From positions 1-28,842 of IMG/VR virus record IMGVR_UViG_3300046000_005823: a DNA stretch of 28,842 nucleotides. One strand, written 5' to 3'. The translations under genes and the position numbers were made by a program. This document shows, in pieces, positions 4,183 through 28,842 of the stretch (position 1 is its first letter; each line of letters starts with the position of its first letter). A model generated the notes under the pieces. That model ran no database searches. It saw only the letters and a program-made list of their open reading frames with translations, and was not told where the DNA came from. This DNA comes from a virus.

Positions 4183-5838
4183 TTATAGAGAACAAGCTCC
4201 ACCACAAGTCGTAAATTCTCCAACTGAGGTATCTAATACATATCCAGGTCCTGAACCAGTTGTTCCTACAATTAAATATACATGATTAATATCCGAAGCA
4301 TCTGGGTAGAACTTACCTGTATTTACTGTTTGACTACTAGGGAATGATACTGTTATTCCACTAACTACTACAGTACATGTAGAGCACTGGTACTTATCGG
4401 CTATATAATGACTATATATTACTTCTGTTGTAGTCGTACTAGTTGTAGAAGTGGTAGTAGTTGGAGCCAATGTAGTGGTAGTTGTCGTACTAGTCGTAGT
4501 GGTTGGAGCTATAGTCGTTGTAGTTGTCGTACTAGTCGTAGTAGTCGTAGGCGCTACGGTTGTTGTAGTACTAGTTGTTGATGTAGTACTTGTAGTAGGC
4601 GCCGCGGTAGTGGTAGTACTTGTTGTGCTTGTAGTTGTTGTTGGAGTCGTAGTAGTAGTCGTGCTAGTAGTACTTGTAGTCGTAGTAGTTGGAGGTCCCG
4701 AATATGGAATCATCGCGTCTTGATACTCCTCATCTGTAATAATGATTACTCCTTGAGAATATAATACATTTCCTACGTGATTATTTTGAGTATATATAGT
4801 ATTTGATAGATAATCTTTCGATGAATATATTACACTAAGTCCTCCTGGAATAGAAGATCCCATGGGTTCTGCTGCTATGCTAGCAGATATTTGTGATTGA
4901 GTATTATTATAGACCTCGATTCCCATGGAGCCAGGATTACTTGGATCTGGGATACCTGCGTTAGTTACCACGTATTTTATATTATGAGTACCCGCGGTTA
5001 GACTAATTGGATATATATGCCAATATCTAAAATTAGTTCCATTACCATCTGGAATTCCTAAACTAACTGTTAAATTATCGTCTATATAAACAGATCCATA
5101 ATTATCGCAACCAATTCCAAAATAATATGTACCAGCAGTTACAGTGATATTAAACTGTATAGCGAAGTCTCCAAAATAAGTTAACGATTTTGCTGACCAA
5201 AGACCAGAGTAGTTTAATCTTCCCGTTTGATTTGCGGTAACTGGATTAGTCCAAAAAGTACCAGCATATGATCCTCCTGTATAAGATGTGTTCCATTCTA
5301 ATGATGTACCAGTTCCATTTATAGAATATCCTGGAGAATATAATCTTACTCCAGATGATGCGTATGCCACGTTAGTTGATGGTTGTGATCCTGTAGTATA
5401 GGTATCTATAACATTTCCATTTCCATCATCAATTAGTCTATATGTACTACCAGAAATAAGCAAACTTTTTCTAGCAATTTGTTCTCCAAAAGCAGTTCTA
5501 GGAATTCCTATGACAGTAATTTCTGCACTAGAGCTAGTTGGAAAATATCGATAATCATTATCAAAAGTTCCTTCTGCTGCTGTAGATTGAATTGAAGGAT
5601 TCCAAAAGCTTGAACTACTTAATAAAGATCCTGTAAGATACTCTTGATAGTAAAGCTGTTTTACTAAAGCATAGTTTAAGTAAGTTACTCCGTCAGTATT
5701 AAACGAAGTATTTATCCCACGATTAACTGTAATACCGTTTGCAGTAAACGATGAGCTATCGTAACTGGCTGAGTATTTAAGTAGAATCGGAGTAGTGGAA
5801 ACTTCTGAACGTTTTATTGTGTTCTGTCCGCGACTCAT
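4183..5838 (-). CDS. Tail adhesin with PA14-like domain and mucin-like Thr/Ser linker
   Basis: A 551-aa structural protein, probably a tail-fibre or receptor-binding adhesin. Residues 1-150 are a polar beta-rich region that may attach it to the tail. About 165-330 resemble a PA14/GLEYA-type sugar-binding beta sandwich: FAIQFNITVTAGTYYFGIG, an acidic GSVYIDD element, and LTAGTHNIKYV are typical of that fold. Residues 384-471 are almost pure Thr/Ser, built of six proline-started units of about 14-16 residues. The C-terminal ~80 residues form a cysteine-containing domain (CSTC, CGGAC) that could be the binding tip. Thr is encoded by mixed ACN codons, so the tract is kept at protein level rather than by triplet slippage. 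Two glycosyltransferases follow directly. PA14 assignment is moderate, adhesin role inferred. Confidence 0.65.
   Translation of the reverse strand: MSRGQNTIKRSEVSTTPILLKYSASYDSSSFTANGITVNRGINTSFNTDGVTYLNYALVKQLYYQEYLTGSLLSSSSFWNPSIQSTAAEGTFDNDYRYFPTSSSAEITVIGIPRTAFGEQIARKSLLISGSTYRLIDDGNGNVIDTYTTGSQPSTNVAYASSGVRLYSPGYSINGTGTSLEWNTSYTGGSYAGTFWTNPVTANQTGRLNYSGLWSAKSLTYFGDFAIQFNITVTAGTYYFGIGCDNYGSVYIDDNLTVSLGIPDGNGTNFRYWHIYPISLTAGTHNIKYVVTNAGIPDPSNPGSMGIEVYNNTQSQISASIAAEPMGSSIPGGLSVIYSSKDYLSNTIYTQNNHVGNVLYSQGVIIITDEEYQDAMIPYSGPPTTTTTSTTSTTTTTTPTTTTSTTSTTTTAAPTTSTTSTTSTTTTVAPTTTTTSTTTTTTIAPTTTTSTTTTTTLAPTTTTSTTSTTTTEVIYSHYIADKYQCSTCTVVVSGITVSFPSSQTVNTGKFYPDASDINHVYLIVGTTGSGPGYVLDTSVGEFTTCGGACSL
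4423..4692 (-). repeat. Six-unit degenerate tandem repeat encoding Pro-(Thr/Ser) units
   Basis: Inside the adhesin gene, about 270 bases encode six tandem units of the form P-T4-6-S-T-T-(S)-T4-6 with one or two hydrophobic or Ala residues before the next Pro. Units are 42-48 bases and diverged at third codon positions. Such arrays expand and contract by recombination, so length may differ between related phages. Confidence 0.8.
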
Positions 5839-21325: not shown

Positions 21326-21646
21326 TTAAATGTACACCTTTTTTATTTCAGAGATGAATTTATCTTCAGAGTCCACGGGAATTCTTCTAGTTACAGTAGT
21401 CGTGCCTCCAGTAGATCTACCATCACAGAAATGAATCATAGTTGTTGATCCTTTCTTTTTTACTACAGCCATTGGATACTTACCGCAGTCTACTTTATCT
21501 TCCAACGTATCGCACTTCTTATTTTCAGAAGAAGAGCAATCAATTTCTTCATAAGCTATTTCATCAGCTTGTAGAATGTACTTAATTCTAGAACACTTAT
21601 CGCATCCCTTAAGAACGTAAAGTTCTACTTTAATCTTGTTTTCCAT
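21326..21646 (-). CDS. Glutaredoxin-like protein
   Basis: A 106-aa thioredoxin-fold protein. A beta strand VELYVLKGCDKCSRIKYIL carries the redox CXXC (C15, C18), followed by the helix and the IAYEEIDCS strand usual for glutaredoxins. A PMAVVKK segment around 59-65 gives the cis-Pro-like site, and a short GRSTGG loop follows. Two extra cysteines (C45 and C54, with C37 nearby) are unusual and may bind a metal or form a second disulfide. Phages commonly encode glutaredoxins to supply electrons to a ribonucleotide reductase; none is in this window. Its start overlaps the upstream 58-aa ORF by 17 bases, implying coupled translation. Confidence 0.65.
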   Translation of the reverse strand: MENKIKVELYVLKGCDKCSRIKYILQADEIAYEEIDCSSSENKKCDTLEDKVDCGKYPMAVVKKKGSTTMIHFCDGRSTGGTTTVTRRIPVDSEDKFISEIKKVYI

Positions 21647-21806
21647 ATTCTGGGTCTATTTTTTCCATAATGTAATTCCAATATAGTTTCTCGCTATCTT
21701 GCATTTCATCATAATGCATTGCTAGATAGATATATATTGCTTGTATTTGTTCTTCTGTAAGTTCTAATGATGCTGTTTCTAATTCTTCTTGTTGTTGATG
21801 TTGCAT
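21630..21806 (-). CDS. Small 58-aa protein overlapping the glutaredoxin gene
   Basis: An open frame starting MQHQQQEELE and ending PEYGKQD, with an acidic, helical middle (LTEEQIQAIYIYLAMHYDEM, then LYWNYIMEKI). Composition looks coding and the frame overlaps the next start by 17 bases in the usual phage manner. It is the first gene of the leftward block, preceded by the structured RNA. The fold could be a small helical adaptor; function unknown. The Gln-rich start may be a leader or a low-complexity tail. Confidence 0.5.
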   Translation of the reverse strand: MQHQQQEELETASLELTEEQIQAIYIYLAMHYDEMQDSEKLYWNYIMEKIDPEYGKQD

Positions 21807-21816
21807 AATGACTTTT

Positions 21817-21846
21817 TAGAGTGTTGCTCTATTTTTTGGTGACACT
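21817..21846. promoter_or_regulatory. Competing stems just before the first leftward start codon
   Basis: Two alternative 5-bp stems share bases: TAGAG (21817-21821) with CTCTA (21827-21831), and AGTGT (21820-21824) with ACACT (21842-21846). On the minus strand they lie about 10 bases before the ATG at 21806, where folding could gate ribosome access. Read on the plus strand, the first stem is followed by six T, so it also resembles a short intrinsic terminator for any rightward antisense transcript. Function is not established. Confidence 0.3.
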
Positions 21847-21866
21847 ACTTTCATTTCTTGTTTATG

Positions 21867-22052
21867 GTTAGAGAGCTCTAGCGGATTTACACCGTCGGAT
21901 TCTACCGATATTCTTCTCCAACTTTTATTAAGATCTTCTTTTTATATACCTGAGGAATATTCTGTCTCCCCTGGTAGTCGATTACACTCCCATCCGCTAT
22001 TTCACTCGTTTCTGGATTCACACCAGGCTACTGCGTAGCGGACAGGATCGAC
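21867..22052 (-). ncRNA. Structured RNA candidate (leader RNA or riboswitch-like), unknown class
   Basis: This 186-base stretch codes for nothing and folds densely on the minus strand. Helix A pairs 22047-22052 with 21977-21982 (6 bp) and encloses helix B, 22036-22042 with 21993-21999 (7 bp). Inside B are a GCTAC/GTAGC hairpin (22027-22039) that competes with one side of B, and a CTGG/CCAG hairpin with a 7-base TGTGAAT loop (22012-22026). Directly beside A is helix E (21947-21976; 4+5 bp around an A-A mismatch). Helix D (21915-21922 with 21867-21874, 8 bp) encloses two adjacent hairpins (21895-21908; 21882-21894), the second with a matching TGTAAAT loop. D and E each contain a pair that is G-U on the minus strand but A-C on the plus strand, which fixes the direction. 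I cannot match it to a known class. Confidence 0.6.
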
Positions 22053-22063
22053 GTTAATCTTTT

Positions 22064-22090
22064 GCAATATACTAATAATAAATGAAACAA
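22064..22090 (-). promoter_or_regulatory. Possible leftward promoter for the structured RNA
   Basis: On the minus strand, a TTG in a T-rich stretch is followed about 16 bases later by TATATTGC, a partial match to the Bacteroidetes TTG...TAnnTTTG promoter with short spacing. A start about 7 bases further on would fall at the 5' side of helix A of the candidate RNA. Weak on sequence alone, but the position is apt. Confidence 0.3.
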
Positions 22091-22135
22091 AAAAATATTT
22101 TTACACATTTATTTTATTTATTCATATTTTTTACG

Positions 22136-22148: not shown

Positions 22149-23078
22149 ATGAACAATGAAAGTCTTATTATAGGAGTACTAGAATCTGTTCTCGGTAAGA
22201 GTAAGCCATTTCCCAAAACCAAAGATTTCGCATTTTATTGTCCTATTTGCAACCATAAGAATCCGAAGCTTATTGTTAACGCAAAGTCTGGTAAGTATAA
22301 CTGCTTCACTTGTCACCCAGCTACAAAAGGACAATCACCGATTACGCTATTAAAAAAGATCGGAGCTCCAAGCGAGACTATAGTAGAAATGAAGGGCTAC
22401 TTAGGCTATCTTACAAAAGCCGAAGATCATGTATCAACATCAGTAAACCTACCTAAAGAATTTATTAGTCTATTAGAGAAAGAAGAATCTTTAGAGAAAC
22501 GGCACGCAATAGCATATATAAAGTCTAGAGGCATTACTGAGAATGATATTATAAAGTACAATATTGGATATTGTAAGACTGGAAAGTATAGAAATAGAAT
22601 CATTCTTCCTTCATATAATAAGAAAGGCATGATCAACTATTTTCTAGCGAGATCTTTCGAAAAGAATCCAGTTAGAAAGTTCGATGCTCCAATCTGCAAT
22701 AAAACAGAGATTATCGGTCTTGAAAACACGATCAATTGGGCAGTACCAGTAATACTTTGCGAAGGTATATTTGATGCAATAGCAATAAAAAGAAACGCAA
22801 TACCATTATTCGGTAAAACAATACCAAAAGCTTTAATGCTTAAGCTTGTAGAGTCTCAAGTAAAGACTGTTTATTTAGCTTTAGATAAGGATGCACTAAG
22901 AGAAGCGATAGACTACGCTAAAAGACTTATCGATATAGGTAAAGAAGTCTATCTTATAGAATTAGAGGGTAAAGATCCTTCAGACCTAGGATTTGAAAAG
23001 GTTACAGAATTACTTCACGAAGCGAGGCCATTGACTTTCTCTGACCTGCTATTAAAAAAGATGCAATTAGTCGCATGA
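22149..23078 (+). CDS. DnaG-type DNA primase (zinc finger plus TOPRIM)
   Basis: A 309-aa primase, functional counterpart of T4 gp61. An N-terminal zinc finger has CPIC (C31, C34) and CFTC (C52, C55), the DnaG zinc-binding layout for recognising the template. After a linker comes the catalytic TOPRIM core: VILCEGIFDA with catalytic E205, then VYLALDKDA with D246 and D248, and an EGKDPSDLG segment (about 273-281) typical of phage primase/helicase TOPRIM domains. No helicase motifs follow, so unlike T7 gp4 this protein needs a separate helicase, which is not in the window. It is shorter than bacterial DnaG and lacks the C-terminal helicase-binding domain. The stop codon overlaps the next start (ATGA), coupling it to the SbcD-SbcC gene. 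It would make RNA primers for the lagging strand in the infected cell. Confidence 0.85.
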   Translation: MNNESLIIGVLESVLGKSKPFPKTKDFAFYCPICNHKNPKLIVNAKSGKYNCFTCHPATKGQSPITLLKKIGAPSETIVEMKGYLGYLTKAEDHVSTSVNLPKEFISLLEKEESLEKRHAIAYIKSRGITENDIIKYNIGYCKTGKYRNRIILPSYNKKGMINYFLARSFEKNPVRKFDAPICNKTEIIGLENTINWAVPVILCEGIFDAIAIKRNAIPLFGKTIPKALMLKLVESQVKTVYLALDKDALREAIDYAKRLIDIGKEVYLIELEGKDPSDLGFEKVTELLHEARPLTFSDLLLKKMQLVA

Positions 23079-26537: not shown

Positions 26538-28842
26538 ATGAAAACAACTGTTCTACTTCCAGGAGGATTTAAACCTCCTCATGGCGGGCATCTACAACTA
26601 GCAAACGCCTACGCAAAAAACCCAGAAGTAGATAAGGTAATCGTGATGATTGGTCCAGCAGAAAGAGACGGAATAACTAGAGAGCAATCTATGGCAGTTT
26701 GGAAGATGCTACCAACAGATAAAAAAGTAGAAATACTTTCTGTATCTGCTGAAAATCCAATGGCTGCAGCTTTTGATTATGTTTTAAATATGAGTAAAGA
26801 TGCTAAAGGAAGGTTTGCGATGGCAGCTAGCTCTAAAGGAGATGATGCAAAGCGATCTGACTCATTTGTAAAATCAATAGAAGCTTACAAAACAAAACAA
26901 ACTAAAGACGGAAGAAACGCTCCAGAAGGAGTAACTCCAGTTAAACTTCCAATAGATGTCGCTCCATTAAATTATAAAGGCAGATCTGATGAATATGAAG
27001 GGAAAGGAGTAAGTGCATCAGTATTAAGAAAAGATTTAGCTAACTCAGATAAAGAGCAGTTCGCAACAAATTATCCAGGACTTGATAACAATACAGTTTC
27101 AAAGATATACGATGTGTTATCAAAAAAAAAGAAAGCCATATACGAGATTATAGAAGAGAGGGCGGTCCTTTCTACTCTGATTCGTACTTTATTGGTTGAA
27201 GGAGGAAATGTATTTCAAGGAACTCAAAGAATTAAACTAGCCGATATAGATCCTACAATTTCTTGGCTTGAAGACAAGTCAGGACTTTCTCTTAAGGATA
27301 ATATGCTAGGAACTACAGGTAAAAAAGCAGATAGCGGAGACTTAGATTTAGGAGTAGATAAAAACAAAGTAGATCAAAATGCGCTAATTAGCAAACTTAC
27401 TGCTAACGGAATAGATAAAGCAGACATCAAAAAGTCAGGAACAAACGTTCACGTAAAGACTCCTATAGCGGGAGATCCTGAAAATGGATTTGTACAATCA
27501 GACTTCATGTTTAACGATGATGTTGATTTCATGAAGTTCTCTATGCAAGGCGGAGCAAAAGATAGTCCTTACAAAGGCGTACATAAGCACTTAGTATTGT
27601 CTAGCATAGCGAAAGCTCAAGGAATGAAATGGTCATATCTTAACGGACTAGTAGATAGAGCAACTAACAAAGTAATAAGCAAGAATCCTAGCGAAATAGC
27701 GACTAAATTACTAGGACAAGGAGCGAAGCAAGAAGATCTAATCAGCGTAGAGGCTATAGTAAAAGCGATAAAAAACAAACCACAATACGAAGAGTGGATG
27801 ACACAAGCAAGACAGGATCTAGCAAAAGATGGTCTTGAGCTTCCTAAAAAAGAAGATCTTAAAGAATCGATAAAAAATATACAAAAGCTAATTAAACTTT
27901 TTGAAGCCGCATCAGCAAGAATTCAACATCCTGAAGACTTAATTTATTGGGATGGATCTAAAGGAGCTGAAAGAGCTTTACAAGTAATGGATAAAGCCGC
28001 AAAAGACCCATCAACTACATCAGTAAAATGGGATGGATCTCCAGCTGTAGTATTTGGAGTAGATGAAAATGGTAACTTCATATTAACAGATAAGAGTGGA
28101 TTCGCTGCAAAAGGATATGATGGCAAAGCTAAAAGCGCAAAAGAAATAGAGACAATGTTTAAAAATAGGGCAATAAAATCTGCTGAAAAGAGTGGAACTA
28201 AACCTAATTTTACTTTTGCAAAAAGCATGGCTAACGCTTACGAAGTATTTAAAAAGTCTTGGCCAAAAGGACTCACTGGATATTTCAAAGGAGATCTATT
28301 ATATCAAAGCAAGCCAGAAGTTATTGATGGAGAGTATGTATTTAAACCAAACATAACTACCTATAAGATCCCAGTTAATAGTGAACTAGGAAAGCAAATA
28401 ACAAAAAGCGAAGTAGGAGTTATACCACATGTTTACCAATCTTTAGACGGAAAAGAATCTGGAGTAAAAGACGCAAAGCAATACAAGTTTAATCCATCAG
28501 GAGGACTCATGGTATTCTCACCAGTGTTTTCAAAAAGCGGAGCAAAGATAGACAGTAAGCTAATGAGCGCAGCTAAATCAGCTGTCTCTAGCGCTAAATC
28601 TGCAGATAAATTACTAGATAAAAGCAAACTTAGTCAAGAAAAAATGACTGATTATGCTGATATGCTTTATAAGTTTACTAACTCTAAAGCAGCTAGTATG
28701 AATACATTAAGCTCAAAAGAGTTCATTAAGTTTTTAGAGAGTGAAAAGACTATTAGTGATGGCAAAAAAGCCAAAATGATAGAGTATTCTCAACAAAATC
28801 AATCAGATTTAGAGAAGATATTTAATGCTGTAAAAGCAATCC
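26538..28842 (+). CDS. Multidomain nucleotidyltransferase: HxGH NTase + Pol-beta-like NTase + KxDG ligase-like (partial, runs off the window)
   Basis: An open frame of 768 codons without a stop, cut by the window edge. Three modules can be read. (1) Residues 1-~185: cytidylyltransferase/NMNAT-type, with LLPGGFKPPHGGHL holding the HxGH motif (H15, H18) and the second motif VSASVLR (158-164). (2) About 235-430: Pol-beta-type nucleotidyltransferase, with a glycine before SGDLDLGVD (D268, D270) and a third carboxylate in VQSDFMF (D322). (3) About 470-650: covalent-nucleotidyltransferase-like, with SVKWDGSPAVVFG (K497, the nucleotide-binding lysine of the KxDG motif), FKGDLLY (585-589) and a KPNITTYKIP segment. 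The end is Lys/Ser-rich and helical. ATG at 26538 follows AGAGG weakly and starts exactly at the first strand. The combination suggests RNA or nucleotide repair; the substrate is unknown. Minus-strand frames inside it are shadows. Confidence 0.7.
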   Translation, partial: MKTTVLLPGGFKPPHGGHLQLANAYAKNPEVDKVIVMIGPAERDGITREQSMAVWKMLPTDKKVEILSVSAENPMAAAFDYVLNMSKDAKGRFAMAASSKGDDAKRSDSFVKSIEAYKTKQTKDGRNAPEGVTPVKLPIDVAPLNYKGRSDEYEGKGVSASVLRKDLANSDKEQFATNYPGLDNNTVSKIYDVLSKKKKAIYEIIEERAVLSTLIRTLLVEGGNVFQGTQRIKLADIDPTISWLEDKSGLSLKDNMLGTTGKKADSGDLDLGVDKNKVDQNALISKLTANGIDKADIKKSGTNVHVKTPIAGDPENGFVQSDFMFNDDVDFMKFSMQGGAKDSPYKGVHKHLVLSSIAKAQGMKWSYLNGLVDRATNKVISKNPSEIATKLLGQGAKQEDLISVEAIVKAIKNKPQYEEWMTQARQDLAKDGLELPKKEDLKESIKNIQKLIKLFEAASARIQHPEDLIYWDGSKGAERALQVMDKAAKDPSTTSVKWDGSPAVVFGVDENGNFILTDKSGFAAKGYDGKAKSAKEIETMFKNRAIKSAEKSGTKPNFTFAKSMANAYEVFKKSWPKGLTGYFKGDLLYQSKPEVIDGEYVFKPNITTYKIPVNSELGKQITKSEVGVIPHVYQSLDGKESGVKDAKQYKFNPSGGLMVFSPVFSKSGAKIDSKLMSAAKSAVSSAKSADKLLDKSKLSQEKMTDYADMLYKFTNSKAASMNTLSSKEFIKFLESEKTISDGKKAKMIEYSQQNQSDLEKIFNAVKAI

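Follow-up and report, generated by a model that had tools for sequence, protein, structure and literature searches.

What kind of element lies between a primase gene and the operon diverging from it in a 28.8-kb virus record (IMGVR_UViG_3300046000_005823; the window, below, is this whole stretch of 28,842 nucleotides)? A sequence-only reading had proposed a dense, strand-specific RNA fold on the minus strand at 21867–22052. The minus strand of this segment indeed folds with an MFE of −54.5 kcal/mol (z −3.74), a stability reached by none of 200 shuffled sequences, vs. a z of −1.86 for the plus strand, and the MFE helices agree with P1–P7 of our comparative model (Table 1). The extent first given held for the core but not at its 3′ limit, as the element runs on to about 21812. 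No ORF of at least 50 aa crosses the core, which is non-coding. The failure to place the RNA in a known family by inspection was borne out by a search with the Rfam 15 covariance models, which gave no match in the window either at the gathering cut-off or at E ≤ 10. In 12 diverse homologue loci the same models gave four weak, unrelated chance hits only, all outside the RNA; the cobalamin riboswitch (RF00174), GOLLD and ROOL were unmatched in the window and in these 12 loci. Among titles and abstracts in the literature, none was recognisable as describing this RNA.

Table 1. Coordinates in the window of the leader RNA, its pairing elements and the neighbouring features
Feature	Positions	Strand	Remark
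Divergent DNA primase gene	22149..23078	+	phrog_47, E 3e-50
Putative Bacteroidota-type promoter	22064..22091	-	TTTG at 22091-22088, TATATTGC at 22071-22064
Leader RNA	22052 to ~21812	-	~240 bases, between primase gene and small ORF
P1 5′ strand (GUCGA)	22048..22052	-	pairs with 21977-21981
P1 3′ strand (UCGAC)	21977..21981	-	partner of 22048-22052
P2 5′ strand (CCUGUCCGCUA)	22036..22046	-	covaries with 21989-21999
P2 3′ strand	21989..21999	-	includes TAGCGGAT (21992-21999) of the sequence-only reading; covariation
P3 hairpin	22003..22035	-	T-loop-like loop UGUGAAU; 97% of cells paired, 5/9 pairs change on both sides
P4 hairpin UACC-A-GG..CUC-A-GGUA	21947..21976	-	98% paired
P4 apical loop (GAGACAGAAU), PK2 strand 1	21959..21968	-	GACA pairs with UGUC
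P8 5′ strand region	21922..21935	-	weak in window, strong in homologues
P8 3′ strand region	21852..21859	-	covariation
3′ domain, P5 (GUUGGAG/CUCUCUAAC) enclosing P6 and P7	21867..21922	-	covariation
P6 hairpin UCGG-6-CCGA	21895..21908	-	99.7% paired
P7 hairpin CGG-7-CCG	21882..21894	-	nearly invariant
X (UAGAG), PK1 strand 1	21876..21880	-	in 3′ domain
PK2 strand 2 (UGUC within AGUGUCACC)	21838..21846	-	segment after P8
Y (UAGAG), local hairpin strand rivalling X for X′	21827..21831	-	hairpin UAGAG-CAACA-CUCUA
X′ (CUCUA), PK1 strand 2	21817..21821	-	ends 10 nt before ORF start
58-aa ORF, first gene of the operon	21630..21806	-	small ORF after RNA in every context examined
Glutaredoxin-like protein, second gene	21326..21646	-	PF00462, 24.8 bits, above its cut-off

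Homologues were collected with the adjoining primase gene as a synteny anchor, which is independent of the RNA sequence, and a similar leader was present in 35 sequences (the window and primase relatives). The set was then enlarged with three short DNA patterns drawn from different parts of the RNA; since these patterns demanded certain bases, the constancy of those bases is owed in part to how the set was collected, a bias of which the primase-anchored loci are free. R1, a covariance model built on the 3′ domain, matched 82 environmental phage loci at E ≤ 5e-14, with 74 distinct sequences, and R2, built on the 5′ domain, matched 77 loci. No significant match was obtained with R1 in 52 RNA-less relative loci, with R2 in 48 RNA-less loci (largely the same ones), or with either model in 54 more distant primase relatives. 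The RNA is single-copy per record, even in records of 160–183 kb, additional hits in RNA-bearing records having E 0.28 or worse. A blastn search of sequenced phages returned no match. Three phages with a primase relative, namely Flavobacterium phage immuto, an uncultured 484-kb phage and Microcystis phage Mel-JY01, gave no significant RNA match. A pattern hit between two genes of a different phage (L136) was discarded as chance because of its R1 score (14.9 bits, E 0.48), and hits in bacterial genomes were rejected, these being apparent coding sequence with no resemblance to the rest of the RNA. A shortened leader (L008 / L102, IMGVR_UViG_3300008108_001994) lacks the promoter region and the entire 5′ domain, with P4 to X′ kept, by deletion or an assembly join.

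Strong covariation, the check proposed for the fold by the sequence-only reading, was found in seven helices (P1–P5, P6 and P8). Of the cells in the alignment of the 3′ domain (A4, 74 distinct sequences), 91.6% are paired vs. 74.5% after shuffling. Two-sided changes are present in 21 of 32 pairs, and the alignment has a covariation score of 0.456 against 0.155 for shuffled and at most 0.127 for slid partners. The 5′ domain (A6, 66 distinct sequences) scored 0.416, against 0.148 shuffled and at most 0.092 slid. Both alignments were fitted to their models and so lean towards the proposed structure; the tests of P1 and PK1 lie outside both and give the same picture. For P1, an own 5-bp partner was present in 44 of 59 homologues vs. 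8.9 ± 2.3 permuted (the permutation tests ignore relatedness, so that these numbers, here and below, are not probabilities), and two-sided changes occur in three of the four pairs counted, as they do in all eight pairs of P5 (94% of cells paired) and of P8 (77%). Recurrent two-sided changes across pair types make a stronger argument than permutation counts. A-U is exchanged for C-G, G-C and U-A at P4 columns 9/42, and P6 appears as UUGG/CCAA and UCAC/GUGA in homologues. The near invariance of P7 means that covariation neither confirms nor refutes its pairing. Invariant bases are also present outside the helices. At the level of sequence comparison, P1–P6 and P8 are shown to form.

Several finer proposals for the fold fared less well. 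The window allows the switch-like pairing of TAGCGGAT with ATCCGCTA, yet complementarity of at least 7 bases was found in just 7 of 59 homologues, six from the window's subclade and L117, and a G-to-T change already breaks it in a very close relative, L003, whose leader is 98% identical. The true helix of the TAGCGGAT segment is P2, which covaries; the alternative pairing could still matter inside the window's subclade. A local GCTAC/GTAGC hairpin was not upheld, its five pairs being reached in only 5 of 59 homologues. Of the two T-loop-like 7-base loops, that of P3 is conserved across the family (position 1 is U, position 4 a purine and position 5 A), but that of P7 varies in length and sequence. 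Nothing favours the suggested tRNA-like element: the T-loop is not duplicated, and ARAGORN detected neither a tRNA cloverleaf nor a tmRNA tag structure. The suggestion of a new minus-strand phage regulatory RNA agrees with the covariation, the lack of an Rfam family and the non-coding core, although the specific switch is not a family feature. As judged from sequence, the leader RNA is a new, previously uncatalogued family, intricately folded and evolutionarily kept in dozens of related phages.

Two long-range pseudoknots, PK1 and PK2, had been missed. For PK1, the X segment has its own exact complement downstream in 53 of 59 homologues, vs. 13.7 ± 3.0 after shuffling (maximum 24 in 2000). This test demanded exact Watson-Crick pairs, a version allowing G-U anywhere being too noisy (327 vs. 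314 ± 7). The pair types were UAGAG/CUCUA, UAUAG/CUAUA, UAAAGG/CCUUUA, UAGGG/CCCUA, CAGGG/CCCUG and UAAGGG/CCCUUA, and the comparison shows the element near the start codon to be co-selected with the 3′ domain. The distance from X′ to the AUG has a median of 14 nt (middle half 11–17); it is usually 10–17 nt, and 20–70 nt in some members. PK2 is weaker, with 3–4 bp: an own 4-bp match was present in 34 of 59 homologues vs. 20.8 ± 3.0 permuted, with the variants GACU/AGUC, GAUU/AAUC and GGUU/AGCC, and it is absent from the L158 group and L167.

X′ has two mutually exclusive partners in many members, X in the 3′ domain or the nearby Y. The Y hairpin gave p 0.03 against shuffles in the window and p ≤ 0.05 in 27 of 59 homologues, and is absent in many others. 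PK1 near the AUG is family-wide, whereas the competing hairpin is significant in those 27 only, so that the X′/Y competition is common and a two-state switch is not universal. In a subclade (L158, L164, L194, L203 and L200), X′ runs on into GCGG, complementary to the CCGC that ends P7; PK1 could there extend and displace P7.

The promoter-like box noted upstream of the fold and the small ORF noted downstream of it are both present. TAnnTT occurs 8–30 nt upstream of P1 in 55 of 58 homologues vs. 37 expected after shuffling, a weak signal in AT-rich DNA. The 58-aa ORF matched nothing in Pfam or PHROG; homologues of it are detectable in most contexts, and the most divergent ones were placed by position alone. 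The order primase / RNA / small ORF / glutaredoxin / HD-like / further genes including baseplate is constant where contigs show it (a few end early, and L192 has no detected glutaredoxin), and the RNA is always divergent from the primase. More than 20 kb of co-directional genes follow the RNA, in what would be a long structural operon, its lateness suggested by baseplate gene content only. No terminator-like hairpin was found on the minus strand between 21600 and 22200, hence no intrinsic terminator between leader and gene. The window genes mostly lack SD-like sequences. The host probably belongs to the Bacteroidota, given the promoter pattern, the genes without SD sequences and a Flavobacterium phage as the closest cultured primase relative (40% identity).

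On the primase tree (a quick search with several forks weakly supported, from which a few truncated contigs first marked RNA-less were left out), the phages with the RNA belong to a single group of 48 rows (support 88), which takes in three lineages lacking it, and the outgroups are without the RNA. The simplest reading would be one gain and about three losses, and these natural losses provide matched comparisons. Within the 25 nt that precede the small ORF, a GGG run was found in 23 of 30 RNA-less relatives vs. 2 of 44 RNA-bearing ones, most of the 30 lying in one clade and thus not being 30 independent events. It is present in two of the three losses (the L016/L207 and L064/L067 lineages); the L228/L236/L240 lineage has none within this 25-nt stretch. 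L016, L063, L207, L064 and L067 carry in these 25 nt a conserved G-run leader (CAGGGGGAAAACAACAGCAGAC or AAAGGGGA...AAGGGGA).

What would such a leader do? Translation in Bacteroidota dispenses with Shine-Dalgarno pairing, their ribosomes relying instead on an open, A-rich stretch around −12 to −15; from this we infer that PK1 might control initiation of the first gene. X′ overlaps positions −12 to −15 in most members. Initiation in F. johnsoniae depends both on structure and on adenines at −12/−13, and positions −12 to −15, where bS1 could contact the mRNA, promote it (PMC6847099); structure near the AUG usually lowers initiation (PMC6847099). Because of the position of X′, the SD-poor genes and the G-run swap, we favour, with moderate confidence, a new family of cis-acting 5′ leaders in which PK1 would control translation of the first operon gene. 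The leader would start close behind the putative promoter and end just before the start codon of the first small gene. Once folded, it would hold the region before this codon, and the opening of PK1, or its yielding to the local Y hairpin, would change access to the initiation region; a metabolite, an ion, a protein or the timing of folding are candidate triggers. Direct occlusion would be harder in members whose X′ lies 20–70 nt from the AUG, and the conserved core offers no testable ligand signature. As in riboswitches, a conserved 5′ leader structure precedes a gene, its regulation of that gene being putative. In a widespread group of environmental phages, the RNA heads the structural operon, with PK1 placed where host initiation is tuned. 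Translation control, if true, would offer a convenient way into phage gene timing where the host initiates without Shine-Dalgarno pairing; ligand sensing would make it a new riboswitch class.

The RNA would also be transcribed first from the putative promoter, ahead of more than 20 kb of co-directional genes, as suits a nascent-RNA antiterminator that binds RNA polymerase for read-through of the structural operon; HK022 putRNA is a phage RNA able to do so alone (PMC9378689). We consider this rather unlikely, as there is one RNA copy per record, an antiterminator has no need for a PK1 reaching almost to the AUG, and most RNA-less relatives have their G-run near the start codon, as would suit a role in translation. 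The same swap, with RNA and G-run leader as near-exclusive alternatives at one gene, would fit a fold that binds or positions the 30S subunit in an IRES-like manner and raises initiation in place of Shine-Dalgarno pairing, PK1 occupying the site of the SD duplex. The PK1 spacing and the window genes largely without SD-like sequences agree with such recruitment, but the lowering effect of structure near the AUG (PMC6847099) does not, nor do ten related records in which no bS21 gene was found, a result that also led us to reject phage bS21 as a link to the G-run leaders; we regard recruitment as unlikely. If true, a bacterial-virus RNA would replace SD pairing in a lineage that ignores it, with the G-run swap as a clue.

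The compact multi-pseudoknot fold would also suit a stable ncRNA that is released from the 5′ end of the operon transcript by processing and acts in trans, and phages do have large ncRNAs whose role is not known, GOLLD and ROOL (PMC12286853). Such an RNA is improbable here, and less likely than a leader, because PK1 finds its partner in the mRNA almost at the start codon and the gene order never changes, the RNA never being found apart from the structural operon. Nested pseudoknots and invariant bases outside the helices would also fit a self-cleaving or otherwise catalytic RNA, which we judge very improbable given the unmatched Rfam ribozymes and the lack of a conserved cleavage-site candidate. 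Local hairpins are frequent in AT-rich intergenic DNA, yet two-sided compensatory changes far above the shuffled and slid controls, in a core without ORF, make a chance fold, a DNA-level element or a coding sequence scarcely credible.

Compared with known systems, the proposed translational leader resembles riboswitches and attenuators in its structured operon 5′ end, the conservation of its core and the rival pairings that many members can form by the start codon; it differs in having no Rfam match, known ligand or terminator platform, and in preceding a phage structural operon, not a metabolic gene. The cobalamin riboswitch (RF00174) carries a T-loop-like hairpin, GGUGnnAAUCC, that resembles P3, but no hit was obtained even at E 10, and helix order and second half do not correspond. 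Like the proposed leader, HK022 putRNA is encoded by a phage, opens an operon transcript and acts in cis; put serves early genes in E. coli, however, size and architecture differ, and no similarity was detected. GOLLD and ROOL are also large pseudoknotted phage RNAs with function not known, but exceed 650 nt vs. ~240 nt, and the leader RNA is a fixed operon leader, not near tRNA islands. The dicistrovirus IGR IRES, an analogy only, also combines several pseudoknots in a compact RNA and places a helix near the start codon; its host differs, there is no homology, and ribosome contact of the leader RNA is putative. Well supported multi-pseudoknot RNA families without an Rfam relative are uncommon, with few known from Bacteroidota phages.

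Elsewhere in the window, the minus strand at 1019–1498 encodes a SegE-like GIY-YIG homing endonuclease (PF19835); in Flavobacterium phage immuto a relative, labelled NAD synthetase in the annotation, is found close to the primase. A long open ORF on the plus strand (26538–28841) runs off the record end, its N-terminus resembling a putative nucleotidyltransferase (FKPPHGGHLQLA). Short tandem repeats with periods of 9–48 at 4429–4689 form an array inside a 551-aa ORF.
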